Assembly: GCA_004369045.1 (NCBI GenBank)
Contig: ML213512.1
Location: 614,085-678,084, forward strand
Length of the DNA: 64,000 nt
Reading direction: 5' to 3'
Origin: Heliocybe sulcata
Taxonomy: Eukaryota; Basidiomycota; Agaricomycetes; Gloeophyllales; Gloeophyllaceae
The notes below the pieces were generated by a model that did not search any database, was not told where the DNA came from, and was given only the letters and a program-made list of their open reading frames with translations. The position numbers and the translations under genes were made by a program. Positions 578 to 54,502 of the stretch are shown here, in pieces; within the stretch, counting starts at the first letter, position 1, and every line of letters begins with the position of its first letter.

Positions 578-2691
578 TTAGTTGTTGGTGTTCGTCCTTC
601 TCTTGTTTATGGCACGAGCCCAATCGCTATCAGGCTCGGCTGCCGCCATGGCTATCATCGTCCTCGCTAACATGACCTTGAAATCATTCTCCTCGCCATT
701 ATGCTTGGCACGGCCAGCAGTCTGAAGCATGCTAGTAGACGCCGACCCTGAGATGGTTGAACTTCCCGGCCTGGGCTTGCCTGCACGCGCATTCACGGAG
801 GGAACGATAGGCCTGAGTGTTGTCGTCGGCTGCTTGCTGATCTCGCCAAAGTTGGAGAGGTCACCAGCTTTAGCAAGATGAGCAGCAGTCCAGTCGTCAG
901 CCTGTGGCTGGTCCTGTCGGTCTTGTCCGCGTCGCGAGCCGCCGTGCGACATGGTATCCATTCTTTGGGAAGATTCGCGCTCGTTCATAGCCTGCTCCAT
1001 CGCAGCCTGAAAGCACGGGTTAAGCTATAGAATAACACCAGCACACATGAGCTTACCTCTTGGTGGATCTCAGCGATTGTCTTCGGAGCCGCCATCGCGT
1101 TACGGGGTATCCAATTGCGGTGGCGCAATTCAACGACATCCTGGCAAGGCAGATCAGGAACGTCGAGACCGTCGAGAATAAAGACAACATACTTGTAACA
1201 TGAACTGCAGACGAGGAGGAACTTTCGGGTTCTTTGCCAGCTCCTTCATACGAGCGAAGTAGATATCCATATATTGCTTCGCCCGCGGTGTGTCGAAAAT
1301 CTGACCGATCGTCGTGAGCAGCTGGCACAAGCTTTCGATTTCCTCCTCCTCGGGGTTGTCGACATTGCTCAGCAGCTTCTTGATACACTCGTGCATGATA
1401 CGCTCCGTCAGCATCTGTAGCTTGAACAACTCGCCAATGAACTTGACGAGACCAAGACCCTGCCGCTTGGCCTTCGCCGCAGCATAGTACTCCTCGGAGT
1501 ACAACTCAGCCTCCTCCTCCTCCTTGCCTTCATTTGCTGCGGCGAGGGCGGCATCAGCAGAAGCCTTGCCCTTTGCAGCAGCAGCGGTACTCTCCTTCGC
1601 AGCCCAACCACGCTCGAAGTCTTCCTGACACCGGTTGAGGAGGTACTTCCTGAACAGCTGCCCACCCGTGATGGGTTTGCCTTCCGTGTTCCGAATACCC
1701 TCGTCTTGCACATCGGGACTGATCTGCTCCATCATCTTCCGACACAGTCGCGCATACATCTCCGACCAAGCAGCCTCGTCAGTGGCTTTCTCAAAGACCA
1801 ACCGAATGACTTGGATGAGGGTCCGGCCATCCTTCTCCTTCTTAGACTTGTTCGCCCAGCCAATGATCTGGTCAGAAATGGACTCGAACCGCTCCATCGT
1901 GAGCTTGTTGAGCAGGCCACAGACCTTACGGTCCACGACCTCGGGCGAGTCGTCATTAACAGGCTTTCGTGCTGAGCTCTGTGGTACGCAGCGGTTCGCC
2001 GACGCCTGATGAGGCGCAACAGGCTCCAGTGGAGGACCCATAGGTGCACGTGGGTTCCCGGGCGTCTTCTGTATTGTAACAGGAGAGGATGTCGGTACAA
2101 TCTCGCTGGGGACAATTGTAAAAGCACGTACGAAGGGTTGTGGCATCTCCCCACTAAGCCAAAGCTCACTCAGGAGCTTCTGAACATCACAATGCGTGTA
2201 CAATTTGGGTGATGCGATTGGCCTTGTCTTCGAGAGGGCCGCGGGAGGTATTGTAGGAGAAAGAGAAAGCGATGTGTAGTGCTTGGTAGGGAACTGCGCA
2301 AGATTTACGACCGGGCCCGAACTCGAAGTGGGAGTCTTTGGCGCAATTGAACACGGCTGGACATATGTCCCATTGCTCTCTTCCGATACAACGGGACCAG
2401 AGAGAACCTGAACGTTGTTCTGTGGTGAGTTATCAGCAGTAGAGTGCGTATGACCCTCTACAGCGGGCTCAGCAACTTTGCGTTGGGGGAAACGCGTTCT
2501 CAAGATCAGAGTCTGCAAGAATATGCTGAGTAGGATTTCAACAAATGGATTAGCGTAGATACCGCTGGTTCCGTCGCACCCGAATTTTTTGCCGTAATTG
2601 CGACTTCAATAACAACGTCACCGTCCTGCCATTGCGTCTGGGTGCGGACGACGTCGTCCCCATGCAAAATCTGATACTGGATGGGGGGCAT
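578..2691 (-). CDS. eIF4G paralog A: MIF4G-only, novel N-terminus, no MA3 domain
   Basis: Five exons on the - strand: 2563..2691, 2132..2512, 1193..2068, 1057..1140, 578..1006 (632 aa). All introns are 50-63 nt with GT..AG ends and the phases agree. The ATG at 2691 is the only good start, because the second exon opens directly after an acceptor and has no early Met. Residues 1-43 resemble nothing I know. A short motif, YTHCDVQKLL, follows near the end of exon 2. An intact MIF4G domain (about 215-490) begins near VDRKV and is almost identical to that of the full eIF4G at 10161..15023, with the same 84-nt exon. The eIF4E-binding YxxxxL motif and the MA3 domain are absent; the protein ends in a different tail (MIAMAAAEPD). 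MIF4G domains bind eIF4A and RNA, so an eIF4A-binding modulator of translation is an inference. The 63-nt intron 2069..2131 is frame-neutral and could be retained. Confidence 0.7.
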
Positions 2692-2939
2692 ATCCAGATA
2701 CAAAACCGTCAAGTATGATAAGGTACGAACTATTCCACGCAGATTACGCAAGGAACCTCGTGAACGTGAAGTGCGAGGCAGAGTTCGAAGAGGAGGAACT
2801 TGGCGAAGTGCGATGATCTAACCGAGATAAACCGCAGCAGATCAATGTACTGTATGACCACGTGCCTCGCCTAAGTGATTTATTCAATGAAAAGCAAAAA
2901 AAAACCAAAATATTATATTCTGACACTTTGTCCTGCATC
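2692..2939. other. Upstream region of paralog A
   Basis: This is a short intergenic gap between paralog A and the duplicated flank of paralog B. It contains a run of T (A on the + strand near 2898..2906) and a short 'gctgagc' tandem at 2943..2962. It should hold the paralog A promoter. I see no further gene. Confidence 0.4.
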
Positions 2940-3346
2940 TGAAGCTGAGCGCTGAGCGCTGAAGCTCAAAGAATAGGGTCGTAGCTAATTGTACAGCCGT
3001 CGGGGCAGAGTGTCGGTAGAACTTCACGACAGCGTACTCGTCTACCTAGGATGACTTCGCTTGAGATTAGACTGTCCCTACTGCCCTTGACGGAGATAAT
3101 GCCGAGAAAGTCATCAGATACAGCAGCAGGCGAAGGCGGGCTCAAGAGGTATTCGGACATAGGATGATTCACGCGATGGGATGAGAAAACGGACACATTA
3201 AGCAAGAAACGAATGGGAAGCTGCGACGTGAATATCGAGGTCACTGCCATGCAAACAGTCGATCTGAGCAAGAGGATCCAACTGAAGCTGCGACATGGAT
3301 AAACATGAAGCGTTGCATTCAGCTCTTGCTGCCCGTCCATCTCTTG
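2940..3346 (-). repeat. Segmental duplication, copy 2
   Basis: This is the partner of 290..577. The 'tgtccctactgc' and 'cagcaggcgaagg' blocks lie in the same order and in the same position relative to an A-type terminal exon (3347..3637). It shows that the duplicated unit extended past the stop codon into non-coding flank. Confidence 0.6.
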
Positions 3347-3637
3347 TTATGCGACGCGCCAATCGTTGTCAGGCTCAGCTGCGGCCATGGCCAAGATCAT
3401 TCGTGCTGCTAAGAGCCTGCGCTCGCTTTCCTCGTCATTAGGCTCGGCAGTGTCAGCATTCTAAAACATGCTACTGGAGGCCAATCCTGGGATAACTGGA
3501 CTGCCCGACCTCTGATCGCCCGCACGTGCATTTGCGGAGGAAGCGCTAGGCGTGAAGGTCATTGTTGACTGCTCGCTGATCCTGCCAAAGTTGGAGAGAT
3601 CACCACCTTTGGCAGGACGAGCAGCAGTCCAGCCGTA
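3347..3637 (-). pseudogene. Fragment of an A-type eIF4G terminal exon
   Basis: Read on the - strand, this fragment starts at a YGWTAARPAK-like segment and runs for 97 codons to TAA, parallel to the last exon of paralog A (578..1006). It shares the unusual tail, MILAMAAAEPD here against MIAMAAAEPD in A. One in-frame TAG lies at 3461..3463, where A reads a Gln codon. No upstream exon is attached directly: the fragment begins 7 nt after the stop of paralog B. It is either a dead remnant of the 3' end that B had before recombination, or an alternative last exon. A TAG acceptor-like sequence sits at its edge, so the second option is not excluded. Confidence 0.6.
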
Positions 3638-3643
3638 CGTAAC

Positions 3644-6591
3644 CTACAAATCAAGTGGGGTTGACAACATGGAGATGAGCTTATCCTTGTCCATCGACTT
3701 GTCAACAATGCGATCACGCCGCTCCAGATCCTTGTCCAAGCCAGCGCCTTTCATCATGATAACAAATAGCTGGGGCGCCTTGGGTACATCGACAGCAATA
3801 TCGTCGATGAACTCGGCAGTGTCCATGAAACCCTCCTCAAAAGCAGCCGATGAGCACAGGCCCTTCTCAGCAGCCCGAAGGAAGAAGCGAGCGACGAGCT
3901 CGGCGTCGGCAGCCTTTGACTCGATAGCCTTGGTAAGCAAAGAGTCGACAAGACGGAACCGATGCCCCTGAGGCAGCTTGGTAAAGTATTCCTCGGCTTC
4001 GTCCAGATCGCGGATAGCGAAGAACTCCTTCGAGTCCTCCGCGATCCTCCGCTTGGCCTCTTCCTCGGACATGGTAGGTTTATATCCTGCGCAAGAAGCA
4101 GAAGGCATCTCCCCCTTCGACTCTTCATCTGCCAAATGCCTCGACTGAGGCAGCAGCTGAATTTTGCTCCCCTCGGTTGGTTGAGGGGGAGGGCCTGCCT
4201 GCAGCCAGTTAACGCTAGGCTTCCGACTTCGTGGCCCACTGGGCTTAACCGCTTCAGGAGCATTAAGCATAGCGGAAATGTTGCCAGACGTCGACCATGA
4301 AATCGCCGGCTCGGACATCCTCGGTGACTGCATGCTGATCTTGCCAAAGTTCGTCAGGTCCCCAGCCTTGGCAGGACGAGCAGCAGTCCATCCGTAAGCC
4401 CGTTGCTGGTCCTGTCGGTCTTGTCCGCGTGGTGAGCCGCCGCGCGACATGGTGTTCATTCGTTGGGCAGATTCACGCTCCTTCATAGCCTGCTCCTTCA
4501 CGGCCTGGAAACGGGGGTTAAGTTATGGCATAACACCAGCACGCATGAGCTTACCCGTTGATGGATCTCAGCGATCGTCTTGAGAGTCGCCATCGCGTTA
4601 CGGGGTATCCAATTGCGGTGACGCAATTCAATGATATCCTGGCAATGCAGATTAGGAACGTCGAGACCGTGGAGAGCAAACACCACATACTTGTAACATG
4701 AACTGCAGACGAGGAGGAACTTTCGGGCTCTTTGTCAGCTCCTTCATACGAGCGAAGTAGTTATCCATATATTGCTTCGCCCGCGGTGTGTCGAAAATCT
4801 GACCGATCGTCGTGAGCAGCTGGCACAAGCTCTCGATTTCCTCTTCCTCGGGATTATCGACGTAGCTCAGCAGCTTCTTGATACACTCGTGCATGATACG
4901 CTCCGTCAGCATCTGCAGCTTGAACAGCTCGCCAATGAACTTGACGAGACCAAGACCCTGCCGCTTCGCCTTCGCCGCAGCATAGTACTCCTCGAAGTAC
5001 AGCTCGGCCTTGCGCTCGGCACCGGCACTCTTTTCAACCGCCGAACCACGCTCGAAGTCTTCCTGACACCGGTTGAGGAGGTACTTCCTGAACAGCTGGC
5101 CACCTGTGATGGGTCTGCCTTCCGCGTTCCGAATACCCTCGTCCTGCACATCGGGGCTGATCTGCTCCATCATCTTCCGACACAATCGCGCATAGATCTC
5201 CGACCAAGCAGCCTCATCAGTAGCCTGCTCAAAAACCAACCGAATGACCTGGATGAGGGTCCGGCCATCCTTCTCCTTCTCAGACTTATTCGCCCAGCCA
5301 ATGATCTGGTCAGAAATGGACTCGAACCGCTCCATTGTGAGCTTGTTGAGCAAGCCCCGGACCTTACGATCCACGACCTCGGGAGAATCGTCATTAACAG
5401 GCTTGCGTGCTGAGCTCTGCGGTACCCAGCGGTTCGCCGATGCCTGGAGAGGTGCAACAGGCTCCAGTGGAGGACCCATGAGGCCACCTGGCGGCTGGTG
5501 CTGGAAGGACATCTGACCAGGACCGCCATTCTTGTCTCCCGGGCGCTTATTGCCCCGATGACTGCGTGTTCGTCCAGAGCCAGACGCGCCTGGGCCGCCT
5601 TGACTGGGTGTGCGGGATATCGCAGGAGGACGGCCACCAAACGCAGATGCACCACCCGGGCCGCTGGGGCCAGGGCGAGCACCACTTGCCATGGCAAACC
5701 GCTCCTCGCTGGACAGTTTACTCGTGGGTGTTGCGAACTGTCCCATAGCGAAGCCACCTGGCTTGCCGAAAGACGAGATACCAAGACCAACGGAGGCCTG
5801 GCGGGAGAGAGCGGGAGGTGTAGACATCGCCGCCCCGCGGTTGCCACGTTGAGAGCCACCCTGGGACATGTAGTGCTCGCTAGCAGGCTCGATACCCATC
5901 GCGTCCAAGGGCGGAAGGCGGTCGGGCTTCTCCTTGCAAATCGGCATGAACTGCAGGAGGAAATTGCGGTCATATCTACCAAAATTCGTCAGAACCTACT
6001 TCTACAACACGCGACAAGTTGAGTACGCACACGAACTTGCCGTCCCTCGCGTTCACATTGAGCTCGGGTTTGGGCCTCTGTATGCCTTCAGGATAGCTAA
6101 TACTATTCAAGTCAACAATGCTGCGCGCGGCAGCAACCGTAAGTGAGAAGGGCTGGGAAATATTGGTTTGTCGAGTGCTGGAAAGATCAAGAGGTCCAGG
6201 GCGGTGTTTCTGCTGAGAAGGAACAGCGGTGTCGATCAGTAGGAGTTCTTTGTCCTTTGAGTCCTGCTCCTCGCTATTCTTATCCTTGGTCGCAACAGGT
6301 GCCAGCTCCTTCACCTCCATTTCAGGCTCGGCAGGCTTCTCCTCCGCAACCCTGGCCTTACGATTCGCGGATGCCTGAAGAGAAGGAAGGAGGTGCAGCG
6401 CAACATCCATACGGGCATCTGAGGGAGAGGCCATCTTCTGCACAGTAACAAAAGCGACAATCAGTAAGTACCATTTGCTTGCAGCCCACAGTAATAATAC
6501 GCACGAAGGGCTGCGGCGTCTCGCCAGTCAGTGAAAGCTCATCCAGGAGTTTCTGGACCTCATGGTTCGTGTAAGCTTTTCGTTCTGTCAT
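3644..6591 (-). CDS. eIF4G paralog B: short form with eIF4E site, MIF4G and MA3
   Basis: Five exons: 6505..6591, 6031..6437, 4691..5975, 4555..4638, 3644..4504 (907 aa). Introns are 67, 55, 52 and 50 nt. The last three match intron positions in the full gene at 10161..15023, and the first matches paralog A. The ATG at 6591 is followed by a KAYTNHEVQKLL motif. That motif resembles KPFSKFDVKQLF in the full protein, but the roughly 700 residues that follow it there, including the charged coiled coil, are missing. The eIF4E-binding motif YDRNFLL lies near residue 166. MIF4G spans about 364-595 with a shortened internal linker, and MA3 about 770-907. The donor of intron 2 (gtgcgt) is weaker than its counterpart. 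No frameshift or stop is seen, so it may encode a working short eIF4G. Its end differs from the full gene by a few residues. Confidence 0.75.
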
Positions 6592-7147
6592 ATTGCTTGG
6601 CTCTGTGAGCTGGTGAAGTGGATCCAGCAGAACGAGGATGAAGCGTGGAGAGAGGGCGCTTATCTGGCTTGCATCAGATGAAGGGCGCCCCGTGTTTGCA
6701 TTCCTAATCCAGTCAATGCGCAGTGAATGAATACTTGACTAGTCCCCACGCTTCAGAGAACATGTATCAGGTTCATATTTAGTCCTCGAATCATGACAAT
6801 TACTAACTGCACCTCGTCTTTCATGTACGGTATCGCACCGAGTGTTATTAGAGTGGAATAACTCGAATATAGCTCGGAAAACCACGCATAACTTCATGGC
6901 CCTATAACAGAACATATTCATGAGAACAATAAGCGTTGAGAAGTCATTTTGATGATTCTTTCTCTGGTTTGAAGCGTTTAGAAGATGCTGCTCCGAGCGT
7001 GTCGTATAGGACCATTCACATTCACCTACAGGTTCAAACTCCGCGGCAGTCCGCTTCCCTAAACCGGTGCCACGTTGAACGCGCCTCAATCTGCCTCAAT
7101 AAATTCGAGTCCGTTTCCACCTCTCTTCTTCCTTAGGCCTTCCGGCC
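6592..7147. other. Divergent promoter region (paralog B / dynactin p25)
   Basis: This 556-bp head-to-head spacer lies between paralog B (- strand) and the dynactin p25 gene (+ strand). No coding segment is supported. A pyrimidine-rich stretch precedes the p25 ATG. Confidence 0.4.
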
Positions 7148-7888
7148 ATGGAGGCGCCCATCTATTACTCCAAGTCAGAGTTCATCGAAACCGTAAGAAA
7201 TACCTTTTACAATCCCGCGTGCTGGCAGCCTGACAGCGCAGCAGGACACAGGGAACAAGGTCTCGCGTCGTGCCACGATCGCAGGTCCGCAGAACATCAT
7301 CCTAGGCGGAAAGACCGTCATCGCAACCGGCGCAATCATCCGTGGCGATTTGAGGCGGACGGGACCTGGCCATGCGGTCGTGATTTCTCTGGGGAGGTAT
7401 TGTTTGATCGGGGAGGGGTGTGTGATGAGGTAGGTGGCGTGTAGTGAAAATTGTTTGAGCGCGTTTATGCATAGCAGATGGATGGAAAAGGCCGCCTTAC
7501 AAGACATACCGGGGTAACTTCAACTACTATCCTATGAAACTTGGTGATCACGTCCATATTGGCGCGAACTCGGTCGTGGAGGCGGCTACTATTGGGAATC
7601 ATGTTGAGATTGGGAAGAACTGTGTTATTGTTGGTATTCCCTCCGCTCTGTCTGCTTGGCATAGTAGTTGACGTTGCGAGCGCGTAGGGGAAGTTCACGA
7701 TCATAAAGGACTGCGCGAAGATTGCGGACAACACGATCATTCCGCCGAATACCGTTATCCCTGCGCTGTCCCTCTTTGCCGGCTCGCCTGGGCGTTATGT
7801 CGAAGACTTACCGGAGTCGACGATGGAGGTCGTCGAATCGCGGACAAAGTCGTATTATAGACGCTTTATGCCCTTTGAAGGACGATGA
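7148..7888 (+). CDS. DCTN5: Dynactin subunit p25 (subunit 5)
   Basis: Four exons: 7148..7192, 7245..7429, 7491..7629, 7688..7888 (189 aa, the usual length for the family). Introns are 52, 61 and 58 nt. The product follows DCTN5 along its length: YYSKSEFIET at the N-terminus, GNKVSRRATI, QNIILGGKTVI, an IIRGDL step, then GDHVHIGANS and GKNCVIG hexapeptide-repeat turns of a left-handed beta-helix. p25 belongs to the pointed-end complex of dynactin, which links the dynein motor to cargo such as early endosomes and nuclei. The start has no competitor upstream. There is no sign of damage. Confidence 0.9.
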
Positions 7889-10160
7889 TCCTCCGCACTC
7901 CTGTATCAAGATCGTCCCAGATACCCGCAAGCTTAAGATACAGGATTGATGACATAGGGTGTGGTTCCTCAGTTGCGAAATCGTTTCGTCTGAGCTGACA
8001 CATCTTTCAGATGGGATGCGTATCCTCTACGTGTCAGCGCTAATTGTACTTTTACATGTCTCATGGAATATGCTTGTAACACGATGAACTCTGTATACAA
8101 CCAGGTGCGTGAGTAGGAACCGTATCTGAGACGGGACATCTGTCTGATGTATCTACTCAAGCTTGGTCATGCGCGACCTGTTCTGCAAAGATTGCCTGCT
8201 CTGAGGATCTGTCCGAGTCTAACTTCATGATGTCCAGCGTGGTAACGATGTGAGTCTTCTTACCGACCACATATCTCGGTGATGAAAATACATCGCTGCG
8301 TTCTTTCGGAGTTTTCTTTGACGATAGCGAATAACCCATGTCTTCTGAGCATTCATCTTCCCATCCTTCCTTCATGAGATTCTAACTTCGTCCTCTTATC
8401 TAGTCTTCTCTCTGTCGCTCGCATCATCCAAGGAGATATCCAGCCATGTGAGTGTCGGCTTGCTCGCGTGCTTCCCAGTCGTGCGAGTGCCATATGATGC
8501 ATAATATCCCATTATTAACCAGACTCTGATCCCTGAGATGAGTCGTGATCACCACCCTCTGACTTGGAGTGGTTTTCTTCCTTCTCCGTCTCCTCGTTTC
8601 GTTCGGGCACTGACCTTCACTTCTAGGCTGCTTAAGCACTACTACCAACTTAAATTTTGATGCCGGTTGATATCCCAGTATTGATGGTGAGAGTCTACGT
8701 GCATGTTCATGATGCCATCGTGCTATGTTTTCGAGATGATAACCTTTCAACGGCGCACATACGCACCTCCACGGAGATGTCATGGTGACTTTGTTGTTTA
8801 TGTACCATCAAATTCTGAACTTTTCCTCAGAGTTCTGGTCTTCCTTCGCTGCATGAGCTGACCTGGACTTCCACTTTTGTTAGATGACGGGTTAATTCGG
8901 CCTGTTCGGAGGTGACTATTGGATGCTGTTGGTACGTCTCATAATGGAAGCTGTTGAGAACAATGTTTTGATTTTCCAAACCAGTCTTGGCGAGGTTTTT
9001 GTCCTGCAGATTACCGATATCGCTGGATATACTTCGTTTGTACGGGCTGATGGGTGCCCTGTACCACCCTCGGGTACTTGTCAGCGTTAGACCTTAGAAT
9101 GTATCGAGCCGGACACTTTAGTCAAATCCAAGTGACCTGGATGGCTGGCTCGATACGCTCTAAGGTACCCGGTTCCGCGGCCGTCCTCTGAGTGTCGGTC
9201 TCAGGACGCACATTCCCCGGAGATATTTTTGCTCGTATCGCCGTTATCGCCTCTGATGCGACGGCTTCTGAAGGTATGGTTTTGGAAGAAGAGGGTGCTG
9301 AAGCGTTTGCCCAGGTGATCTCCGGATTTGGCGTTACAAGACGATGACATCGTGTGGGACCCTGGGAACCTTGGGCACGGCAACGGTGTTGCGCCGGTGT
9401 TCAGTCGGTAGTAAGTTCGGGGCCGCGGATTGCTGTGAACTGACTCGAGAGCATCGCCTCCTGACATGGCAGCAATGCCGGAGGGAATGCGCGTACACAT
9501 AGGGCTAGTTTGCGGGAGCGTCGGTACTTGGTTTTGTTCCTCCTGTGGCGGACGTGCTGTCACGTCCCTAGACGGATGCTGGTATGGGAGTGGCTGGTTA
9601 ATAGCGCTTATGTGAATGCCCCCGTGTTTCGCATTTTAATTTCATGGAGAGTGATTCTGCCTGCTGCCTGTTGCCCACCTCGATGCGTGTTGCCATAAGT
9701 AGAACTGAATTACTGTTACATGCGTACTGAGCATGGTAGCCTCGCGATTTCATGACAATGGTCGCGACCCGAGGTATCTGGGGCAGACGAACACCATTAT
9801 TTGATCTGGGCCATTATATTGCCGGCCGGGGCTGGGGGTGACCCGGGTCTTCCTGGTGACGCCGAATGTTTTACAGGCGTCGCACGGAGCCGGGCATACA
9901 TCTTTCGTCCTTACTCGTAGGACAGGATTGAGCGGACCGCTATACTCAGCGTCCGACCCTCTTTTCCCGCCAACTTCCACTTGCGACTGTTTGTTCGCCT
10001 GCTGGCAGGTCATATTTACGACCGACCCACACGCGCGACGTACTCCCTGATATCTGACAAATCACCGCAAAATCCAAAATTCGTACGTCGTCGCAGTCGA
10101 AGAGCGCGCGCGCGACACTCACGCTTTTCTCCCGAATTTTTGCCATTTTTTGAGCCCAGG
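7889..10160. other. Gene-poor spacer
   Basis: About 2.3 kb without a supported gene. Open frames are short, lack family motifs and have no consistent splice pairs. It contains the hairpin repeat at 9091..9166. The last 150 bp should hold the promoter and 5' UTR of the full eIF4G gene. Confidence 0.4.
9091..9166. repeat. Imperfect inverted repeat (hairpin)
   Basis: Left arm 9091..9110 and right arm 9147..9166 pair over 20 bp with two mismatches (core 'gtatcgagcc'). The 36-nt loop has its own small stem (atcca/tggat). It could be a remnant of a miniature transposon, or a structured element; no target-site duplication is obvious. Confidence 0.5.
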
Positions 10161-13100
10161 ATGAGCAAGGTTTCCTCTAGTTCACAATCGAAGATTCCTT
10201 CCCAGCTTCCGTCAAAGTCAGCTTGGGCACGGGGACCCCCTCAGAGCACTTCCTCAGCTTCCTCGCCCCGCACTCAGTCGCCTGCTCCAACCAGCGCGAC
10301 CCCGCCAGCCACTGCGACACATTCTAGACGTCCTAGTGCTCTTACTGGTCAGGGTGTCTCGATAAAGGATGGCGTATCTGTACCTAGGAGCAATGCCGGG
10401 CATGTCAAGCAGGGTGAGTACGATGCAGTTTATTGAAGTAGGGCGTTGATTGTTAATCCTGCACCAGCATCGTCCGTTACGTTTGGTTCGATAGATGACG
10501 CGTCTTCGGCGCCCATATCCTCTTCCCCAGCCAGCATACCGGCTATAAAGGCCGAAACCGTAAAATCGTTCGGGACTGTACCCGCGTCACCGTCGCCGAC
10601 GTCCGTAAATGGCAAGCAGCCCGTAGGATCTGTACGAGGAGCCAACGGATCATCTAATGGCACATCAACCTCATCCACAAGCGAGGCTAAGAAGCCATTC
10701 AGCAAGTTTGACGTCAAACAGCTCTTCCAGAATCCAAGCTCGAGCTCTCCTACACCTTCTGTATCATCACCACTGCCATCGTCCTCTCCATCCGTTCGAC
10801 CATCGGCATTGCCCCCTCAGCACACTCCGCCTGCCTCGCAGCTGGGCAACGGCCCGTATACCCCCTTTACACCTAGCGCGCAATTTAGAACACCTACGAC
10901 TCCTGCTAATGGACCTGCCGGACCTGGCCAGCCTCCGCGTTCCCCGGTGTCTTTCAGACCGATGGCGAATGGCGCAGGCGGCGCTGGCGCTCGGCCGTCG
11001 ACGGGTCCCACACCTCCTGCGGGTCCGCCCCAGGGCATGCCCGCTGCTATGCCTAGTCCGCGCATGACACCCCACCCTCACCCTGCGACACCGGCGGGGT
11101 TGCCGCCTGGTACACCCGTTGGTTGGCAGCCGTATGCATACGTGAGTCCACGCTATTCGAATTGGTTGCAATACTAGACTGACGTCTTCTCCAGTCCTAC
11201 TATGTACCTGGTCTTCCTGCGGAACACTACATGCAGCCGCACTCGCCATACGGCCAATGGATGCCTCCGCAAGGCTTCCAACCTCCTCCGCAACATCCCC
11301 AAGCTCATATGCCCCATGTTCCGCCTGGTCCGCCAGGACCTCCTCACTCCGGTATGCCTATGTCCCCACGAAATCCTCCGCCACCGTTACAGGGACCCGG
11401 AACGCCCACGCCTTCACATGCTGTCCCTGCCCAACATCAACACGTGCCCTCGAGTACTGCAAGTACCATCTCCTCTCCTCCCTCCACTCCCTCTACCCTT
11501 GGCCCAGCCGGGCCTACCGGCAACGCCCGCTTAAACTCCGGGGCCAGTGCATTCGTTCCTCGGCAGTCAAAGATCGTCATCAAGAGTATTGATGGCCAGG
11601 AAGTCGACTTGCGTGCATTGGGAAAGACGCCATCGCAGTCTGGTGCACCGGTTGCCCCACCTTCACCTGCTCCTAGCCCTGCTCGGCGGTCCACCATCCG
11701 TATGGAGACGGAGGAGGCGAAGAACAAGCGGCTAGCGGAGGAGAAGGAGAAGGAGCGAAAGAAGGAGGAAGAGGAGGAGCGGAAGAGGAAGGAGATCGAG
11801 GAGAAGGAAAGGAAGGAGCGCCAGGAGGTGGAAAAGAAGAAGAGGGAGGAAGAGGAGCGCGTGCAGCGGGAGCAGGACGAGAGGAAGCGGAAGGAGGAGG
11901 AGGAGGTGAGGAGGAAGGAGGAGGAAGATAAGGAGAGGATGCGGAAGGAGGAGGAGGAGAAGGAGAGGGTTAGGAAAGAGGAGGAGGAGAAGGTGAGAGT
12001 TGAGGAGGAGAGGAAGAAGAAGGAAGAGGAGGAAAAGCAGGTTAAAAGGGAAGAAGAGCAGAAGAAACGGAAGGAGGAGGAAGAACAGCGGATGCGTGAA
12101 GAGGAGGAGAAGCGGAAGGAGGAGGAGGAGGCGGAGGCCGCCAAGGCCAAGGCCGAGACACCGGCCCCGCCACCTGAGGAGAAGCCTGCCGAGCCTGAGA
12201 TGGAGGAAGGCGAGGTGAAGGAGGAGGCACCTGCTGCGGCTGAGGAAGAGAAGAAGGACGAGGAGCAGAAGCCAAAGGACAAGGGACCCTTGCGGATCGA
12301 TACCGCTATTCCTTCTCCGGAGCAGAAACGCCGCCCTGGGCCTCTTGATCTTTCTAGCACTCGCCAGACCAATATTTCCCAGCCCCTCCCCTCCGCGCTT
12401 GCTACTGCGCGCATTATTGATGACTTGGGGAGTGTCACCTATCCTCAAGGTATCCAGAGCCCGAGGCCGGAACTTAATGCGAATGCGAAGAACGGCAAGT
12501 TCAGGTGAGTCTGAGATATGTCGCGTGGTCCTGGGACGTCCACAGATGATCTTTTGTAGATATGACCGCGATTTCTTGCTCCAGTTCATGTCAATCTGCA
12601 AGGAGAAGCCCGACCACCTTCCACCCTTGGACGCCATCGGTATCGAGCCTGCTAGCGACCACTACATGTCTCGTGGTGGCTCGCAACGTGGCAGTCGCTC
12701 AGCAGCGATGTCTACACCTCCCGCTCTCTCCCGCCAGGCCTCCGTTGGTCTTGGTATCTCGTCTTTCGGCAAGCCGGGTGGCTTCGCTATGGGACAGTTC
12801 GCAACACCCACGAGTAAACTGTCCAGCGAGGAGCGGTTTGCCATGGCAAGTGGTGCTCGCCCTGGCCCCAGCGGCCCGGGTGCATCTGCGTTTGGTGGCC
12901 GCCCCCCTGCGATGTCCCGCACACCCAGTCAAGGCGGCCCAGGTGCGTCTGGCTCTGGACGAACACGCAGTCATCGGGGTAATAAGCGCCCCGGAGACAA
13001 GAATGGCGGTCCTGGTCAGATGTCCTTCCAGCACCAGCCGCCAGGTGGCCTCATGGGTCCTCCACTGGAGCCTGTTGCACCTCTCCAGGCATCGGCGAAC

Positions 13101-15023
13101 CGCTGGGTACCGCAGAGCTCAGCACGCAAGCCTGTTAATGACGATTCTCCCGAGGTCGTGGACCGTAAGGTCCGGGGCTTGCTCAACAAGCTCACAATGG
13201 AGCGGTTCGAGTCCATTTCTGACCAGATCATTGGCTGGGCGAACAAGTCTGAGAAGGAGAAGGATGGCCGGACCCTCATCCAAGTCATTCGGTTGGTCTT
13301 TGAGAAGGCCACTGATGAGGCTGCCTGGTCGGAGATGTATGCGCGGCTGTGTCGGAAGATGATGGAGCAGATCAGTCCCGATGTGCAGGACGAAGGTATT
13401 CGGAACGCGGAAGGCAAACCCATCACGGGTGGGCAGCTGTTCAGGAAGTACCTCCTCAACCGGTGTCAGGAAGACTTCGAGCGTGGTTGGGCTGCGAAGG
13501 AGAGTACCGCTGCTGCTGCAAAGGGCAAGGCTTCTGCTGATGCCGCCCTCGCCGCAGCAAATGAAGGCAAGGAGGAGGAGGAGGCTGAGTTGTACTCCGA
13601 GGAGTACTATGCTGCAGCGAAGGCCAAGCGGCAGGGTCTTGGTCTCGTCAAGTTCATTGGCGAGTTGTTCAAGCTGCAGATGCTGACGGAGCGTATCATG
13701 CACGAGTGTATCAAGAAGCTGCTGAGCAATGTCGATAACCCCGAGGAGGAGGAAATCGAAAGCTTGTGCCAGCTGCTCACGACGATCGGTCAGATCCTCG
13801 ACACACCGCGGGCGAAGCAATATATGGATATCTACTTCGCTCGTATGAAGGAGCTGGCAAAGAACCAGAAGGTTTCTTCTCGTATGCAGTTCATGTTACA
13901 GGTATGTGGTGTTTGCTCTCCACGGTCACGACTTTGCTGATTTGCATTGCCAGGATGTCATTGAATTGCGTCACCGCAACTGGATACCCCGTAACGCGAT
14001 GGCGGCTCCGAAGACGATCGCTGAGATCCATCAACAGGTAAGCTCATAGGTGTTGGTGTTGTTCCATAGCATAACCCGTGCTTTCAGGCTGCGAAGGAGC
14101 AGGCTATGAACGAGCGCGAGTCTGCCCAAAGGATGAACACCATGTCGCGCGGCGGCTCACGACGCGGACAAGACCGACAGGACCAGCAACAGGGTGACGG
14201 ATGGACTGCTGCTCGTCCTGCCAAGGCTGGCGATCTGTCGAACTTTGGCAAGATCAGCAAGCAGTCACCGATGACGTTCGGGCCGAGTGGTATCTTCGCA
14301 AGCAAGAAGGAGATCAAGGAGAGCAAGCGCGACTCGACGATTTCGCGGTCGACGTCTGGCAACATGTTCGCTATGCTCAATAATGCTGAAGCGGCTGAGG
14401 CGGCGGCTAAGCCCAGTAGGCCTCCAAGTCGGAAGCCCAGCGTTGACTTGTCGCAGGCAGGCACTCCCTCTGAGCCATCCCAGCGGAGGAAGATTCAGCT
14501 GCTACCTCGGTCGAAGCCTCTGGAAGATGAAGAGTCGAAGCCAGAGACGCCTTCTGCTTCTCGCGCTGGATCTGACGATGGGGAGGAGGCTGATGGCGAG
14601 CCTACCATGTCCGAGGAAGAGGCCAAGCGGAGGATCGCAGAGGACTCGAAGGAGTTCTTCGCTATCCGTGATCTGGACGAAGCCGAGGAGTACTTTACCA
14701 AGCTGCCTCAGGGACATCGGTTCCGTCTTGTCGACTCTTTGCTTACAAAGGCTATCGAGTCAAAGGTTACCGACGCCGAGCTCGTCGCTGGCCTCTTCCG
14801 TCGCGCTGCCGAGAAGGATCTGTGCTCACCGGCTGCTTTTGAGGAGGGTTTCATGGGTACTGCCGAGTTCATCGACGATATTGCTGTCGATGCACCCAAG
14901 GCGCCCGAGCTGTTTGCTATCATGATGAAAGGCGCTGGTTTGGACAAGGACCAGGAGCGGCGTGATCGCATCGTTGACAAGTCGATGGACAAGGACAAAC
15001 TCATTTCCATGTTATCATCATAG
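10161..15023 (+). CDS. eIF4G: Translation initiation factor eIF4G, full length
   Basis: Six exons: 10161..10413, 10468..11141, 11195..12504, 12560..13901, 13954..14037, 14088..15023 (1532 aa). Introns are 50-55 nt and all phases agree. This is the scaffold that links the cap-binding eIF4E, the helicase eIF4A, eIF3 and poly(A)-binding protein on mRNA. The N-terminal 450 residues are rich in Ser, Pro, Ala and Gly. A KPFSKFDVKQLF motif lies near residue 180. A very charged Lys/Glu/Arg coiled-coil segment spans about 480-635. The eIF4E-binding motif YDRDFLL begins at residue 747, MIF4G spans about 944-1221 and MA3 about 1395-1530. The ATG at 10161 is the first in frame; no upstream ATG extends it. 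The coiled-coil region is a purine-rich tract (about 11705..12170) that creates long meaningless frames on the other strand. Its C-terminal exons are the source or sister of the two - strand paralogs. Confidence 0.93.
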
Positions 15024-19841: not shown

Positions 19842-21293
19842 CTATACATTGAGACTCACCGCTAGGCCATCTTGCCACCAACTCTCGCGACACTCCGCCT
19901 CGGTTCGCACGGAACGTGTTCTGGAAATATAAACATCGTGTGTATGGCAAGCCAACTCTTCAATTGTCTTCTGAGACTCTGATACATCGTCGACGTAGGC
20001 GGTTACGGACCGTAAAGTCGGTACATCGTCGGATTCGGCCCTTGCCTGTGCAATGGTTATCAAGTCCTCGACCGGAAAATTGACGGCCAGATGTTTCAGT
20101 TTTGGATAGGGCCAGCCCTCTGCATTGGAAAAAGAACTTGGTTCCTCCTGCATAAATTGGGAGGGTACCAGGAGAGTCTTGACGTCGTGAGGGTGGCCGG
20201 TGATAATCAATGTCTCGAGGGCTTTGAATAGAGCTAGCGTAACGTGGAGCTGGTAAGGTGGGGTCTCCCATACCGAGTCCTCGTAAGGATTCTCTGGATC
20301 TTGAGCGCGAAGCAGATCCACCTTAAGCAAACGTACATCTCCCCAGGAAGGCACCCTGAACCCAAGCGCAGCAAATAATGCCATGAGTTGCACCCATATG
20401 TGGTAGCGTTGAGGTGAATGCCAAAAACACATGGAAAAAGATTGCAGACTTGGTACAAGCAGACCTAAGCAGAGAGTCATCGTGACGGTAGGGTCTTCGA
20501 AGCTGATGGACAGATCGGATAGGCAAGGTAGAGATGCACAGCCGTTTACCCTTGACTCCCAGGTAGAATCAAAGCCAAGAGCTGTGCATGAGAAGCTTTC
20601 TAGCTGCTGCATGTCGTTGAACATATCGACTACTTGGTGGCACTCTTCTGCAGATATAGACACGCTGAGACGGCGCACGCGAGAGTATATCTGGGGATTA
20701 GCTCCACGGATGGCCCAGGGTATATTGACATGGCGCAGAATGACATCGTCAGAGCTCAAGACATTAAACCACGTCTCATCCCCCAGGATATTCTCTTCTG
20801 GTATCGGTGAGCCGACGAGAGCAGGCCAGTGAATATGAAGATCCTGAACGTAGGGAAGAGCGGATCGGCACAGTGAAAGGAAGTTGTGGAAGACTTCTTC
20901 CGTACAGCAGCCAAGACTGACACGGAGCGTCCTCCATCTGTGACGTTCTGACACGGCAAGTCCGACGGCGTTCGCCAAAGACATGGCTGGTTGGTGGGCG
21001 TGTTCTGGTCCTGATTCGGAGTGGAACTGAAGGAGCAAGACAAGACCCGCATTGCCGGACCGCTGAAGATGTCTAGTGATTCGAGACGGTGTCCAACGGA
21101 AGTCGATGGAGGACCAGAGGCAGCAATTAGAGTCAGTTAGGGTTCTCCACTTGCGGCAGACGAGCTCGCAAGTCTCCAGGAAATCCGCATCTTCACTCTT
21201 GCAAACAGAGAACACCAGGCTGAGAAGCTCCTCAGGTAGACGATTTACGGCGACAGCAGGAACAGTAACTCCTTCTTCTGCCGATCCTGCCAT
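19842..21293 (-). CDS. F-box protein
   Basis: One long open exon (483 aa) from a clear ATG. An F-box lies at residues about 17-62 (NRLPEELLSLVFSV, then CRKWRTLTDSNCCLW), followed by a poorly conserved leucine-rich region. F-box proteins are the substrate receptors of SCF ubiquitin ligases; this one is of the large, fast-diverging Agaricomycete type and its target is unknown. The last codons run through a perfect donor (gcg|gtgagt) only 18 nt before the stop, so the gene may continue in a downstream exon that I could not place. Confidence 0.75.
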   Translation of the reverse strand: MAGSAEEGVTVPAVAVNRLPEELLSLVFSVCKSEDADFLETCELVCRKWRTLTDSNCCLWSSIDFRWTPSRITRHLQRSGNAGLVLLLQFHSESGPEHAHQPAMSLANAVGLAVSERHRWRTLRVSLGCCTEEVFHNFLSLCRSALPYVQDLHIHWPALVGSPIPEENILGDETWFNVLSSDDVILRHVNIPWAIRGANPQIYSRVRRLSVSISAEECHQVVDMFNDMQQLESFSCTALGFDSTWESRVNGCASLPCLSDLSISFEDPTVTMTLCLGLLVPSLQSFSMCFWHSPQRYHIWVQLMALFAALGFRVPSWGDVRLLKVDLLRAQDPENPYEDSVWETPPYQLHVTLALFKALETLIITGHPHDVKTLLVPSQFMQEEPSSFSNAEGWPYPKLKHLAVNFPVEDLITIAQARAESDDVPTLRSVTAYVDDVSESQKTIEELACHTHDVYISRTRSVRTEAECRESWWQDGLAVSLNV

Positions 21294-22049
21294 TGTTTGC
21301 CTGCCTGCAAGAGATGGACGTTCCCGACGAGCACCGTAGGTACAGTCACCGGAGAGGGATCCAAGGGATCTACCCGCCTATGGGATACCAGATATTGTAA
21401 CAAAATTCCGCTTGACGATGTTTTAATGCCAGATACCTATAGTGTGATTAATGCCCGCAATATAGTTGCCAAACGTCACTTGTCGAAGTCTTCACATTAC
21501 TTACCGATCCAGCTAAACACTAGCACTCATTTCTGCGTTACTAGCCAGTTTGAGGAATACATTCACGAGACGTTACAGTGGACTGTTGAAGATACCAGCA
21601 AGAGCGACCCAGGAACTTTTGGGCTAAGGGTCAACGTTCAACGCGGGAGTTGCCGGCGGTGCGTTTCCAGAACAGTGCCCGCGTCTCGAAAATATGGTGT
21701 ATGGAGTATGACATTTGTACGTAGTTTATGCTGTTTACAAGGATTCCGAAGATAGGCCACAGGGCATATACAGTACTGAAGCGTTACCAAGCTAGGTCCC
21801 AGGCGGTCTACCACGAACTCCAGTCGAATGCAAGACGGTGAAACATGTCTTCTCGAGAACATGAGTTACCCAAGAAGTAAGGTATAAACGTAATCCACGA
21901 ATAGTCCGACTGCGTCACAAAAATAAAGATAAGAACGTCATGGACGGTCGTGCTAGAAGACCAGGGTATTCTCTACGAAAGAGGGCTCGTCAATGCTTCA
22001 GGCAAATTGAAACGGTGGCGCAACTGACCACATAGGATAAAGGGTATCA
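21294..22049. other. Spacer without supported gene
   Basis: About 750 bp between two - strand genes. Only short frames without motifs are present. It should contain the promoter of the F-box gene near 21294..21450. Confidence 0.3.
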
Positions 22050-46622: not shown

Positions 46623-47582
46623 AGATGTGGAGGTTTAAATTTGATTCGTGCGGGCAGACTTGCACAGGGGATAAATACTCTAGAGGATCTTGTTTCGGAG
46701 AGAAATCATAATTAGAACGCTGTACAGGTTACAGGACTGAGAAACAGCCTTACCCAGTCCCTCTAAGTCCGAGCGAAAAGCGGATGTCGAGACATCACGA
46801 CGGTTGCCGGTAGCAAGCGAGGGCGGTCCGGGAGCTGTGTAAGCACGTGGTGCGATCTACTGAACGCTACGGCTGTTGTCGACCAATCATAACCCTCACT
46901 GAGCGCAGTCCTCTCTCGCTTTATAGCATATCGTAGGCATGACTTCACTACCAAGGCTCACGGAAGAAATGCAAGATGCTATTGGTGGAGAACTGGGGCT
47001 AGTGATGTTGTCGATGCCGGGGGTATCCTCCGCACTTGCCTCCTCAAAATTTTCCGGCAGTCAGGCTTGCGCGTTGATTGTCCGGTGAACCTAACTATGC
47101 GTTACCGGTACCATGCGTGGCTTACGTTGAATTACAGAGCAGATGCGACATGGCTCATCTTGGATCTTACTCTGCAGATACCTCGAGAATGACTTGACTT
47201 TCGCCTTTCTCCGCAAGCGTATCTGTCATTCGTCCCGGTGGCACTTGAGCTGCGAAGATACTCCAAGATGTTACCTTTGTGCTGCCCTCCAGGAGAGCGC
47301 ATTTTTTGTGAAGATGAGTGGGATCTCATATCTTAGGCAGGAGGCGGAGCCCAGACTGAGAGCGTCGTCTACGGGACCTGGGTTTCCTAGGAGCAGCGAA
47401 CCCACAATCCACGCCCGTGTGAACCATGACACCCAGCTGCCCCTCGTGGATGTGGTTCAATCTCCGCCATCCTATGCACGTGCTTTGCTTCTTTGTGGCA
47501 CTCGCCTTTGCCCGGCAGCGCGCCGCATCTTCTTCTTTCACACCGTCATCTAACGCCCTCCGCGCTTCCTTCAACGGACAAT
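46623..47582. other. Divergent promoter region
   Basis: About 960 bp between the 2H gene (- strand) and the F-box gene (+ strand). An in-frame run upstream of 47583 opens at 47426, but it conflicts with the conserved first intron of the F-box gene. No separate gene is supported. Confidence 0.35.
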
Positions 47583-49363
47583 ATGTCTATACTCCATTCT
47601 TCCTCGCTCGGCTCTATGAATGCGTTGCCTGGTTCGCACGTAAAATCAGGCGGAAGGGTGACCAGAAAGTACGTCTCGCAACCTTGCTACTGGTCGTGGC
47701 ACGCTCACATGCTATGTCCAGGCTGAGAGCAGGCTTATTCAACACCTGGACGGAGGAATACTGCGACTCCGGTGCCGAGGAAACGACCCTGATGTCTCTG
47801 CCGGAAAAGGTCTTGGTTTCCATCATCAAGCTAATGGACGAAGCCACCATCCTCTCCTTCGCTTATACATGCCGCTTCATTTACAATATCGCCATTCCGG
47901 AGTACATCGATGTATCCGAGTCTCACGAATTTCCCGGCCAGTTGCGACAATTCAAGAACTGGACCAGCCGGACGTGTCTTTCCCTCAGTTTCAGGCATCC
48001 TGAGCATTACCGATGCATCCCATTGGTGACCCTTTCGCCTGCCATCCAGTCGCTGAGCGATGTATGGTTTCACATTACCCCAACTCGACACGACATGCTC
48101 CACCAAGCAGCCAGATTCTTACAGGCCATGTCGGCGACGGAGAACCTGTGCATTAGCTTTGGCTCCAAATTGCCCGGTCGGCTGCGTCCCGTGGAATGGG
48201 AATGGGACGCCCTCCACACGTGCGGTCTGGTGAAGATTCTTCGAGCACTTGCCAATAAGCGCGTTACCCGGCTTACGCTGCAGGCTCGTGGTTGCACGAC
48301 CGCGGTGGCGCCGGAACATTCGTCGACTTACTTCTTCATGGAGGACGAGCGTTGCTATGAAACTCTAGAAAGCTTGCAAGATGTCTACATCGCGGTCCCC
48401 GCGATGTCCGTTCCATGCTTTCGCCTGTGGATGGTCGAATCTTTGAATGCCAGCCCCCTGAGGTCTCTCACTCTCGAAAGCCGCGGGGTGCCAGAGAGCG
48501 CTTGGACCAAGCTATTCCGTTCACTCCAGCTGCCCAGTCTGCGCCATGTCAAGCTGAACATTGACTCCCTGCGCGCTAGGGCCTTTTCGCAATTCTTGAA
48601 AACCAACCGGTGGGTTCGCAGCCTGAACGTGCAGCAGGATCTGCTGGATGAAGACTCCTTCATGCACTTGCGAGCTCTTTCATACCTCGAGGACCTCACT
48701 TCCACCGCTATCAATGTGTCCCGAGTGTTGAAGAATACGGACGCATTGCCGTGTCTCAGCCAGATCCGCATCGTCTCGCGTGGTTTACGAACCTGTCCAG
48801 ACTTGCTGCATATCGCGGAGTGCATGGCTGCTCTCGCATCCTGGGAAGCCACACGTCCTATCAAGCTTATCCTTGACGTCGATCAGCTAAATCACGACGC
48901 CGAGCCTCCTCAGCCGCCGCTGAGCTGGACTATGGACGAGGAGGGTAACCAGATGGAGAACCCCGAGCTTGCGTACTTTTGGGACGAGCACGCTAATTGT
49001 TGTGCCGGGATAAGTCGGTCAATTGCCCAAGCGCCTTGCTTGCTTGTTCGCACCCTCGAGGTTACGTTGTTCACGGGACTCCGGTTCACCACGTCTCTTT
49101 ATGTGCGTAAATCTCGTTACGCAGCCTGCCATCTTCGCGTTGCTAATTTTCTGCCACAGTATGGTCTGAAACAATGGTTGAGCTGGTGTCCGAGCGTCGA
49201 ACGCCTCTTGCTCTCCTGCTCGACATACACGGAGCAGGACGCACACTCGTTGCTGCGTACACTTTGGAAGGATTTCCCGGCTATTCAGGCGATCGAGATT
49301 TCTAGTGGCTATAGAAGGCAGGTGCATGAAAGGTCCCATGAGACAATGGAAGTGGATGTCTAA
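47583..49363 (+). CDS. F-box protein (paralog of 52916..54502)
   Basis: Three exons: 47583..47668, 47722..49102, 49160..49363 (556 aa). Introns are 53 and 57 nt. The F-box lies at about residues 50-90 (LMSLPEKVLVSIIKLMDEATILSFAYTCRFIYN), followed by a long alpha/beta leucine-rich region. I prefer the spliced start because its - strand paralog has the same first-exon layout and a related first intron. Reading through instead gives a 645-residue frame from 47426. The second intron is frame-neutral, and its paralog has an intron of the same length at the same place. The likely role is substrate choice in an SCF ubiquitin ligase; the target is unknown. Confidence 0.75.
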
Positions 49364-52915: not shown

Positions 52916-54502
52916 CTAAGACGTGGGGTCGCGTCTGATATAATACGGCCTGGCCCCCCAAAGATCATCGACGACATCAATCTGCTGTACAGACGGACAC
53001 TTTGTGTAGACCTCGAACACGAGACGTGTATCTTCCTCCTCGCCAAAGTGTGCTGCTCCGCATTGGAGCACCACTTTTTCGACATTCGGGCACCATTCGA
53101 CCCACTCCGGCAGGGAGTACTGTCATATATGTGTTAGAAAAGACTTGAGCATACATGTAGGATGCAGGATACGCACGAGAGCGGACGTAGTAAAGCGGAG
53201 GTGATCGAACAGCGTTACTTCCAACACGCGAACATTGAGTGCAGGCCACCGATCGTCATTGCAGCTAATATATTTGGAGAACCAGGAGTTTTTATAAGCA
53301 GCACAGCCCTCCTTCCACTCATTAGCGTCGCCACTGGTGGGGTACACCTCGTCGCGAATCCAGCGCTCGCTGACTTCCGTGGGTGTCGCGTCTTTCTGGA
53401 TATCCACGACTTTCAGGGATAGATGGATCGGAGGCCGCGAGGGCCGCGCGGCGAGACTTTCCATGCAGTGCGTGGTGTGTAATAGGTCGGGGCAAGTGCG
53501 TAGACCGTTGGAGACAATGTCAACGCGTTCGATAGAAGCCAGCGCGCCGCTGTTTTTGAGAAACCGGGACATTTTTAATGGCGTCCCCTCGAGCTCCCGA
53601 AGATTGGGAAGAGCGTGGCTTGGGAGGTATAGCAGATCCGGTTCCATGACATCCTGGTAAACTCCCAGGAACTGCAAGGAAGGGTGGTTCACAAGGAAGA
53701 ACAGAAGTGTCGGTGCGTGGAGCGTGTTGACGTCTATAGCGAGGTGACGGAGGTGCGGGACCTGTAACCCAAAGAAAAGCTCGGTCCAAGCGGCGTGTGG
53801 CACGTCCTGCGCTCGGAGCGTGAGCTTCCGGATAGGGCTCGCGTTGAGGGACCCAATAGCCCACATACGAAAGTACGGCACGTCGATAATAGGGACCTGG
53901 ATGGCGAGCTCCTCCAAGGTGTTAAGCGTATCCTCGCACCAGGAAGCATTCATAAACGGATAGTTGGAAAAGTCCGTGGGGACGCCAGAGCTCGTCCACC
54001 ACGGCGCGTCGAGGACGAGGCGCTTGACGACCTTTCCGGACAGGATGTGAACCATCTCCGCTAACTTGTACGTGTGCAATGGCGTCCATTGGATGTTCCG
54101 ACCGCGCGCCGTGTGTACTCGATTCCAATGAATGTCGTCGCCGTGCGGCTCCATCGCGAGACCGAAGTATAGACGCAGTTCCCCTGTCCCGGATATCCTC
54201 TGCATAAGCTCGATCGCGCAGGCCATCCTGTCGTACCCCGTGGGAGTGATGAGGAAGCTGATTTGCTCGTAGTAAAGCGGTATCAGGTAAGGGATGGTGT
54301 TGTATTCCTCGACCTCTAGGAGATGTAGTCGGGGCCACAGCCGCCTCGAGTGGCTTCCCGATGAGCCTGTTGAGCTGGAACAATGTTCTACGTTAGCGTG
54401 CCACCGATGATGCGACCACGGGCAGGAGACGTACCCTTCCCCTTCTCCTCCAGCACTGGCCGACGGCCCATTATGGGAGCAGAGAGCAGTGACGGCAGAC
54501 AT
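52916..54502 (-). CDS. F-box-family paralog lacking the F-box
   Basis: Three exons: 54435..54502, 53177..54374, 52916..53119 (489 aa). Introns are 60 and 57 nt. Large parts align with the F-box protein at 47583..49363: FR.W...SLNASP..LTL, GLRTCPDLLH..CM..LA, and VRVLEVTLF..LRFTTS. The last exon has the same 204-nt length and the last intron the same 57 nt. The segment that holds the F-box in the + strand paralog is missing; after the first intron the protein goes directly to a Ser/Gly linker and the repeat region. Without an F-box it could not bind Skp1, so it may be a decoy or a degenerating copy. The frame is fully open, with no stop or frameshift. Confidence 0.7.

Follow-up and report, generated by a model that had tools for sequence, protein, structure and literature searches.

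Three eIF4G genes lie within the leftmost 15 kb of the window, by which we mean the whole 64,000-nucleotide (nt) stretch of contig ML213512.1 of Heliocybe sulcata analyzed here. They are a full gene on the forward strand, which we named F, and two shorter genes, A and B, on the opposite strand (Table 1). The gene models were made by hand, and the start codons given for A and B are our choice. A first-pass annotation of this DNA had reported a full eIF4G of 1532 amino acids (aa) accompanied by opposite-strand paralogs of 632 and 907 aa, and our spliced models give these same lengths. The open frames and conserved intron positions that it described were also found: all three frames are open, 13 of 13 introns are of the GT-AG type (50-67 nt), and the two introns at the end of the MIF4G-encoding region have identical positions in F, A and B. 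One further intron is common to F and B, and intron 1 of B corresponds to intron 2 of A, with no counterpart in the F model. At the DNA level, F is 93.8% identical to A over 1212 nt, and 88.5% and 84.7% identical to B over 1344 and 1436 nt, respectively (E 0.0 in all cases). The codon usage of A and B resembles that of F and does not set any of the three apart.

Pfam analysis of F revealed an eIF_4G1 region (PF12152, aa 702-764, 5e-20), a MIF4G domain (1.4e-52) and an MA3 domain. The MIF4G domain belongs to eIF4G and not to UPF2 or CWC22, as all six PDB matches are chains of the eIF4G family (best 2e-56). eIF4E-binding motifs follow the pattern YxxxxL-phi, which is present once in F. The N-terminal arm of F includes, at 11700-12140 on the forward strand, a long low-complexity stretch rich in Lys, Glu and Arg with internal repeats, and no such stretch is present in A or B.

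Gene A had been described as lacking the eIF4E site and MA3, and this is correct. MIF4G is its only family above the Pfam cut-off (a Gal11_ABD1 match lies below it, as is also the case for B), neither PF12152 nor MA3 was detected in the Pfam scan, and the YxxxxL-phi pattern was not found in either its strict or its relaxed form. The linker and MA3 are replaced by a C-terminal tail specific to A. In the SANRWVP motif, A carries a cysteine instead of the tryptophan that B keeps; we take this residue to be W579 of yeast, which presumably contacts the N-terminal lobe of eIF4A. In the KVSSR stretch, both serines are changed to prolines in A as well as in B. A predicted structure of the A MIF4G exon, based on three near-identical rows, had a mean predicted local distance difference test score (pLDDT) of 57 and was too poor to be used.

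Gene B contains, in this order, eIF_4G1 (PF12152, 2.4e-16), MIF4G (PF02854, 1.2e-52) and MA3 (PF02847, 5.6e-10). B does not have the long N-terminal arm with PABP/RNA sites, 165 aa preceding its eIF4E-binding motif versus 746 in F; a PABP site was not located in F. The reported absence of the long N-terminus from B therefore stands, but B is not an N-terminal truncation. It is a hybrid, composed of an A-type 5' end, the C-terminal body of F and, behind its stop codon, a decayed A-type tail. A and B have a common 5' exon (pattern YTxxxVQKLLxELxLxGExPQPF), in which the residue is kept at 17 of 25 codons, and they also have in common the intron that follows, as well as 26 further codons in equal register, down to QASANR. 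From there, B continues with an F-like body that tracks F from aa ~637 to the stop through the eIF4E site, the linker, MIF4G and MA3. Within about 10 bp of the B stop codon the A-type tail resumes, running from 3636 to about 3320, and the flank behind it matches the 3' flank of A to about 3030; tail relic and flank differ from A at 90 of 324 and 89 of 254 aligned sites, respectively. The simplest reading would be an A-type gene whose middle has been replaced by the C-terminal body of F. A and B are thus not simply the shortened copies described earlier, given the 5' exon common to these two only, the separate tail of A and the hybrid structure of B.

Two candidate assignments of the common 5' exon were rejected. 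Its best window in the N-terminus of F (FSKFDVKQLFQ, F aa 159) is similar in appearance but scored no better than shuffled sequences (P 0.17 of 2000), and YTxxxVQKLL fails the YxxxxL-phi pattern of an eIF4E-binding motif. Upstream of the chosen ATG, at 6600-6740 on the reverse strand, the B frame is open, and B may therefore have an additional 5' exon.

The first-pass annotation had also called the MIF4G domains near-identical. This holds for the numbers, because over exon 3 of A the proteins of F and B are 96% and 92% identical to A, respectively, but conservation alone does not account for it. F has an identical stretch of 208 bp in common with A and one of 170 bp in common with B (Table 1). 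Per 100 bp, 1, 0 and 2 differences separate F from A at 13401-13700, versus 9, 1 and 6 at 13101-13400 and 3, 5, 14 and 10 at 13701-14100 on the flanks. Between F and B they amount to 25 and 35 at 12401-12600 (eIF4E site and intron) and 13 at 12601, and to 3, 0, 6, 0 and 1 at 12701-13200. The identical-run test ignores uneven constraint, yet the acidic loop, from which 60 nt are missing in B, is covered by the F-A run. The DNA of MIF4G and the linker has therefore been partly homogenized by conversion between F and the opposite-strand copies, and part of the near-identity of MIF4G is recent copying. The synonymous divergence (dS) between F and B is 0.43 in the eIF4E-site region, 0.18 in MIF4G and 0.12 in the linker, which warns against reading near-identical domains of such copies as a clock. 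Conversion between F and B at 13600-15017 was unsupported, the longest identical run being 62 bp (P 0.17).

A 5'-truncated and broken fourth copy, psi4, is located approximately 10 kb to the left of the window. Its first 717 bases correspond to F 14023-14948, with matches at 612 of 717 aligned sites and gaps of 102, 1, 6, 24 and 76 nt. Two features are common to psi4 and B, namely an A-type WTAARPAK segment following the MA3 part and the absence of 24 nt present in F, and psi4 is therefore a dead relative of B. The sole other match in the 30 kb left of the window is one of 38 bp to the Lys/Glu-rich repeat of F. With its broken frame and a ratio of nonsynonymous to synonymous substitution rates (dN/dS) near 1, psi4 serves as a pseudogene control.

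The first-pass annotation had proposed dN/dS between the MIF4G domains as a check, values near 1 together with a lack of A and B transcripts pointing to decay. For MIF4G we obtained 0.118 for F-A (25.5 synonymous and 11.5 nonsynonymous changes), 0.214 for F-B and 0.167 for A-B, and for the F-B MA3 domains 0.183. In a 71-codon block of the MA3 region, the F-B value was 0.20, versus 1.04 for F-psi4, and the synonymous/nonsynonymous changes in this block unique to B and to psi4 were 4/4 and 1/13, respectively (Fisher P 0.039). With a null model of a neutral copy and a fully constrained F, P values were 0.0006-0.0045 for the F-A MIF4G counts and 0.0002-0.006 for the F-B counts of MIF4G, MA3 and the linker preceding MIF4G added together; the looser regions, which are the eIF4E-site region, the part immediately following MIF4G and the linker ahead of MA3, lie outside this sum. 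These tests rest on small counts. All eight coding gaps between F and B are multiples of three (3, 9, 3, 3, 60, 51, 12 and 24 nt), and the aligned coding part of F and A has no gaps. Neutral simulations with a lineage divergence of 0.06-0.15 predicted a mean of 3-10 stops, the probability of finding no stop being 0.03 or less. Polarized synonymous/nonsynonymous MIF4G changes were 18/6 unique to A, 22/21 unique to B and 8/5 for F against A=B. These results support the view that A and B are probably kept by selection as proteins, more clearly for the MIF4G domain of A than for that of B alone.

Table 1. Features of the eIF4G cluster and its surroundings. Positions are those of the window unless stated otherwise.
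Feature	Position	Strand	Details and basis
F, full eIF4G, 1532 aa	10161..15023	+	6 exons: 10161-10413, 10468-11141, 11195-12504, 12560-13901, 13954-14037, 14088-15023 (gene model)
F eIF4E-binding motif YDRDFLL, aa 747-753	12561..12581	+	YxxxxL-phi pattern, single occurrence in F
F MIF4G domain, aa 948-1201	13164..13977	+	One intron inside; Pfam; yeast 2vso_E match, E 2e-56
F MA3 domain, aa 1409-1500	14649..14924	+	Pfam
A, MIF4G-only relative, 632 aa	578..2691	-	5 exons: 2691-2563, 2512-2132, 2068-1193, 1140-1057, 1006-578 (gene model)
A MIF4G domain, aa 217-470	1117..1930	-	One intron inside; Pfam
A Cys197 (TGC)	1988..1990	-	Trp of SANRWVP in F, B and yeast 2vso_E; sequence comparison
A-specific C-terminal tail	578..829	-	Replaces linker and MA3; gene model, comparison with F and B
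B, hybrid eIF4G, 907 aa	3644..6591	-	5 exons: 6591-6505, 6437-6031, 5975-4691, 4638-4555, 4504-3644 (gene model)
B eIF4E-binding motif YDRNFLL, aa 166-172	5954..5974	-	YxxxxL-phi pattern, single occurrence in B
B MIF4G domain, aa 368-601	4615..5368	-	One intron inside; relative to F and A, acidic loop shorter by 20 codons; Pfam, alignment
B MA3 domain, aa 780-868	3764..4030	-	Pfam
B Leu612 (CTC)	4582..4584	-	At the H1-CT proline before K-x-I, kept by F and A; comparison, motif as described in PMC3352336
A/B common 5' exon, copy in B	6505..6579	-	KAYTNHEVQKLLDELSLTGETPQPF; A-B comparison
A/B common 5' exon, copy in A	2132..2206	-	KLYTHCDVQKLLSELWLSGEMPQPF; A-B comparison
B 5' junction	6344..6377	-	A-type up to QASANR, F-like body from EEKPAEPEM (F aa 637); DNA and protein comparison
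Decayed A-type tail 3' of B stop	3320..3636	-	2 stops and single-base gaps relative to A; comparison with A
Conversion tract F-A, 208 bp identical	13408..13615	+	0/5000 shuffles as long
Conversion tract F-B, 170 bp identical	12993..13162	+	0/5000 shuffles over whole alignment; P 0.0002 within exon 4
psi4, 5'-truncated, broken eIF4G fragment	C10:604103-604929 (L027:19-845)	+	~10 kb left of window; DNA comparison
Dynactin subunit 5 (p25)-like gene	7148..7888	+	Outside the eIF4G family; two pieces match Pfam DCTN5; extent estimated by eye

The reading that we prefer, with a probability of roughly 0.6, is that the cluster is a small eIF4G family formed by duplication, module swapping and gene conversion, in which A and B would be kept by selection and are predicted to be scaffolds. 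Judged from the anatomy of the genes, the first step would have been the origin, from eIF4G, of a short A-type gene consisting of a 5' exon of its own, MIF4G and a tail replacing MA3. This gene would then have been copied in tandem, and the body of one copy would have been replaced by F from aa ~637 to the stop, resulting in the hybrid B and the tail relic; the hybrid structure is observed, and the order and mechanism are those that we infer. A B-like copy died as psi4 ~10 kb to the left, its route to this place being conjectural. Conversion between F and the opposite-strand copies homogenized parts of the MIF4G and linker DNA, and selection would keep A and B as proteins. The opposite order, in which the B-type gene is ancestral and lost two segments by deletion between direct repeats to give A, appears unlikely. 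In its favor, QASANR and WTAARPAK are each present twice in B, and psi4 has the 3' junction of B and the 24-nt gap relative to F, which points to at least one other occurrence of the B-type arrangement. However, a B-type ancestor must already have held two partial duplications, both deletions must have landed in frame, and the first QASANR of B, whose alignment with A is in register from the intron onward, reads as the leftover of an A-type MIF4G start.

We consider it quite improbable that A and B are functionless, decaying duplicates that owe their intact appearance to conversion from F. Conversion involving F was indeed detected and a dead sister is present nearby, but the N-terminus and tail of A and the 5' exon of B are open although they do not match F and are hence beyond the protection of conversion, and the unprotected A-type tail behind B has gained two stops and single-base gaps. 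Moreover, the F-A MIF4G changes favor synonymous ones, the F-B coding gaps are all in frame, and neither a broken frame nor a domain dN/dS near 1 was found for A or B, such a value being obtained for the B linker alone. Several observations do weigh against the retention of both copies by selection and for decay. The linker before MA3 of B has a dN/dS of 1.06 relative to F, and the F-B eIF4E-site region one of 0.352 (45.7 nonsynonymous and 30.3 synonymous changes), both of which are compatible with loose constraint. Taken alone, the MIF4G (P 0.025-0.12) and MA3 (P 0.03-0.10) domains of B each reject the neutral-copy null weakly. The polarized test is unclean, because F and B have exchanged DNA and the A-unique class may hold F-lineage changes copied into B. 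Deeply conserved positions have changed (W to C in A, SS to PP in A and B, and the H1-CT P to L in B), which may reflect loss besides specialization. The order of events proposed for the family is based on one genome, because the collections searched were viral and prokaryotic only and yielded no relative.

The suggestion in the first-pass annotation that the retained frames indicate function agrees with the purifying selection on the structured domains of A and B; the cap-independent and repressive roles that it proposed stay conjectural. Most likely, A is a scaffold or competitor that has a MIF4G domain but is uncoupled from the cap, similar in logic to DAP5, and it would engage eIF4A, eIF3 or RNA away from the cap. 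It is predicted to bind its partners weakly and off the cap because it has neither an eIF4E motif nor MA3, and has a cysteine for the tryptophan that presumably contacts eIF4A. As candidate eIF4A partners, A and B both match MIF4G over its full length in Pfam, and A has lost the SANRWVP tryptophan. A may be a helper of special mRNAs or a translation brake. A dominant-negative brake, in which A would titrate eIF4A, eIF3 or 40S without cap binding, is one form of, and compatible with, the reading that A is a selected scaffold, and we hold it as a tentative possibility. It fits with A keeping MIF4G while the eIF4E motif, MA3 and the SANRWVP tryptophan are gone; a supporting scaffold would, however, share this anatomy. 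As described in PMC9977666, DAP5 overexpression decreased overall translation in one cell line, presumably by sequestering eIF3 and eIF4AI, but global translation was unchanged upon DAP5 knock-out in mouse stem cells.

B is most likely a short cap-binding eIF4G, eIFiso4G-like in logic, which would form a cap-bound eIF4E-eIF4A scaffold without the N-terminal 636 residues of F; the components needed for this, an eIF4E motif, MIF4G with the SANRWVP tryptophan and MA3, are all present in B. In yeast, the N-terminal arm of eIF4G is reported to bind Pab1 and Pub1 (PMC3169606). According to PMC3352336, a proline mutation in the H1-CT motif of Arabidopsis eIF4G (cum2) inhibits plant-virus replication, and the proline changed in B would, from its place before K-x-I, be that of the cum2 motif. 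It is conceivable, though very doubtful, that the cluster is a working module-swap system in which conversion keeps the MIF4G core of the three linked genes current and selection diversifies their ends, and that it has yielded both a cap-uncoupled scaffold (A) and a short cap-binding form (B) in a single fungus; B might then translate in a form unusable by a mycovirus.

A genome-wide MIF4G profile scan, in which the best candidates only were scored, gave seven matches, three of which are F, A and B. Two adjoining matches on C4 go with UPF2, which an overlapping frame matches, and one on C28 goes with CWC22, which is matched by the frame just before it. The match on C12 is weak (36 bits), and two frames nearby gave no Pfam family; NOM1/Sgd1 is our unconfirmed guess. 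Among these best candidates there was thus no further eIF4G, the C12 match being without a family name. Copies of the A N-terminus or tail beyond contig C10 were limited to weak matches (best E 0.04 and 0.24), a protein search (E up to 0.01) found no further family copies in the rest of the window, and, as expected for a fungal gene, no relatives were confirmed in the viral and prokaryote genome collections. A literature search at the level of titles and abstract openings found no such fungal eIF4G cluster, which is no proof that none is in print. Three eIF4E-family loci are present in the genome (C14, C8 and C1; L018-L022), and eIF4E forms could therefore pair with different eIF4G forms. The dynactin subunit 5-like gene sits between B and F; it and B are divergently oriented, with a short upstream region in common. 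Further to the right, F-box-like frames are found at 19842-21377, 47423-49363 and 61753-63147 (one above and two below the Pfam cut-off), and a fourth such frame at 53123-54574, without a Pfam match, is 38% identical to that at 47423-49363 over 365 aa.

PAIP1 has a MIF4G domain without an eIF4E site, and PABP-binding motifs. A is similar to this type in the former respect, and a Pfam-only scan of A gave no PABP-binding motif. F resembles yeast eIF4G (TIF4631, TIF4632) in the eIF_4G1 region, the YxxxxL-phi motif and a MIF4G domain matching yeast 2vso_E. The two eIF4G genes of S. cerevisiae are described as having one domain architecture and being 51% identical (PMC2817733); compared with this pair, the copies studied here are linked, short, hybrid and partly homogenized. 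In addition, F and B contain MA3, which S. cerevisiae eIF4G is reported to lack (PMC12063893).

Short eIF4G forms of animals (DAP5) and plants (eIFiso4G) are thought to retune the choice of translated mRNAs. Animal eIF4G2/DAP5/p97 has, like A, MIF4G without an eIF4E site, and is described in PMC9977666 as also lacking the PABP site and as having MA3 and a second C-terminal HEAT (W2) domain, neither of which was detected in A by Pfam. In the absence of C-terminal MA3 and W2, A is compared with DAP5 in mode of action and not classed as a member. The same source gives 39% identity between the MIF4G domains of DAP5 and human eIF4GI, versus 96% between A and F over exon 3, and states that the binding of DAP5 to eIF4A is about tenfold weaker than that of eIF4GI; A and DAP5 probably have independent origins. 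Plant eIFiso4G is described as combining the eIF4E site, MIF4G and MA3 without a long N-terminus (PMC3352336), as is the case for B. B differs in having an A-type 5' exon and in having arisen inside the cluster as a hybrid, and a pattern search found in it neither the plant SLRPGG nor the eIFiso4G-type H1-CT motif PRREExKAKTI, B reading RNAMATLKTIAEIHQRA. Both short architectures are, in outline, present side by side in one fungus, and the steps are legible in the hybrid gene, the tail left behind it, the conversion tracts and the dead sister, which acts as an internal control. The cluster is a natural test case for which modules of eIF4G a scaffold can lose or exchange while still being useful.

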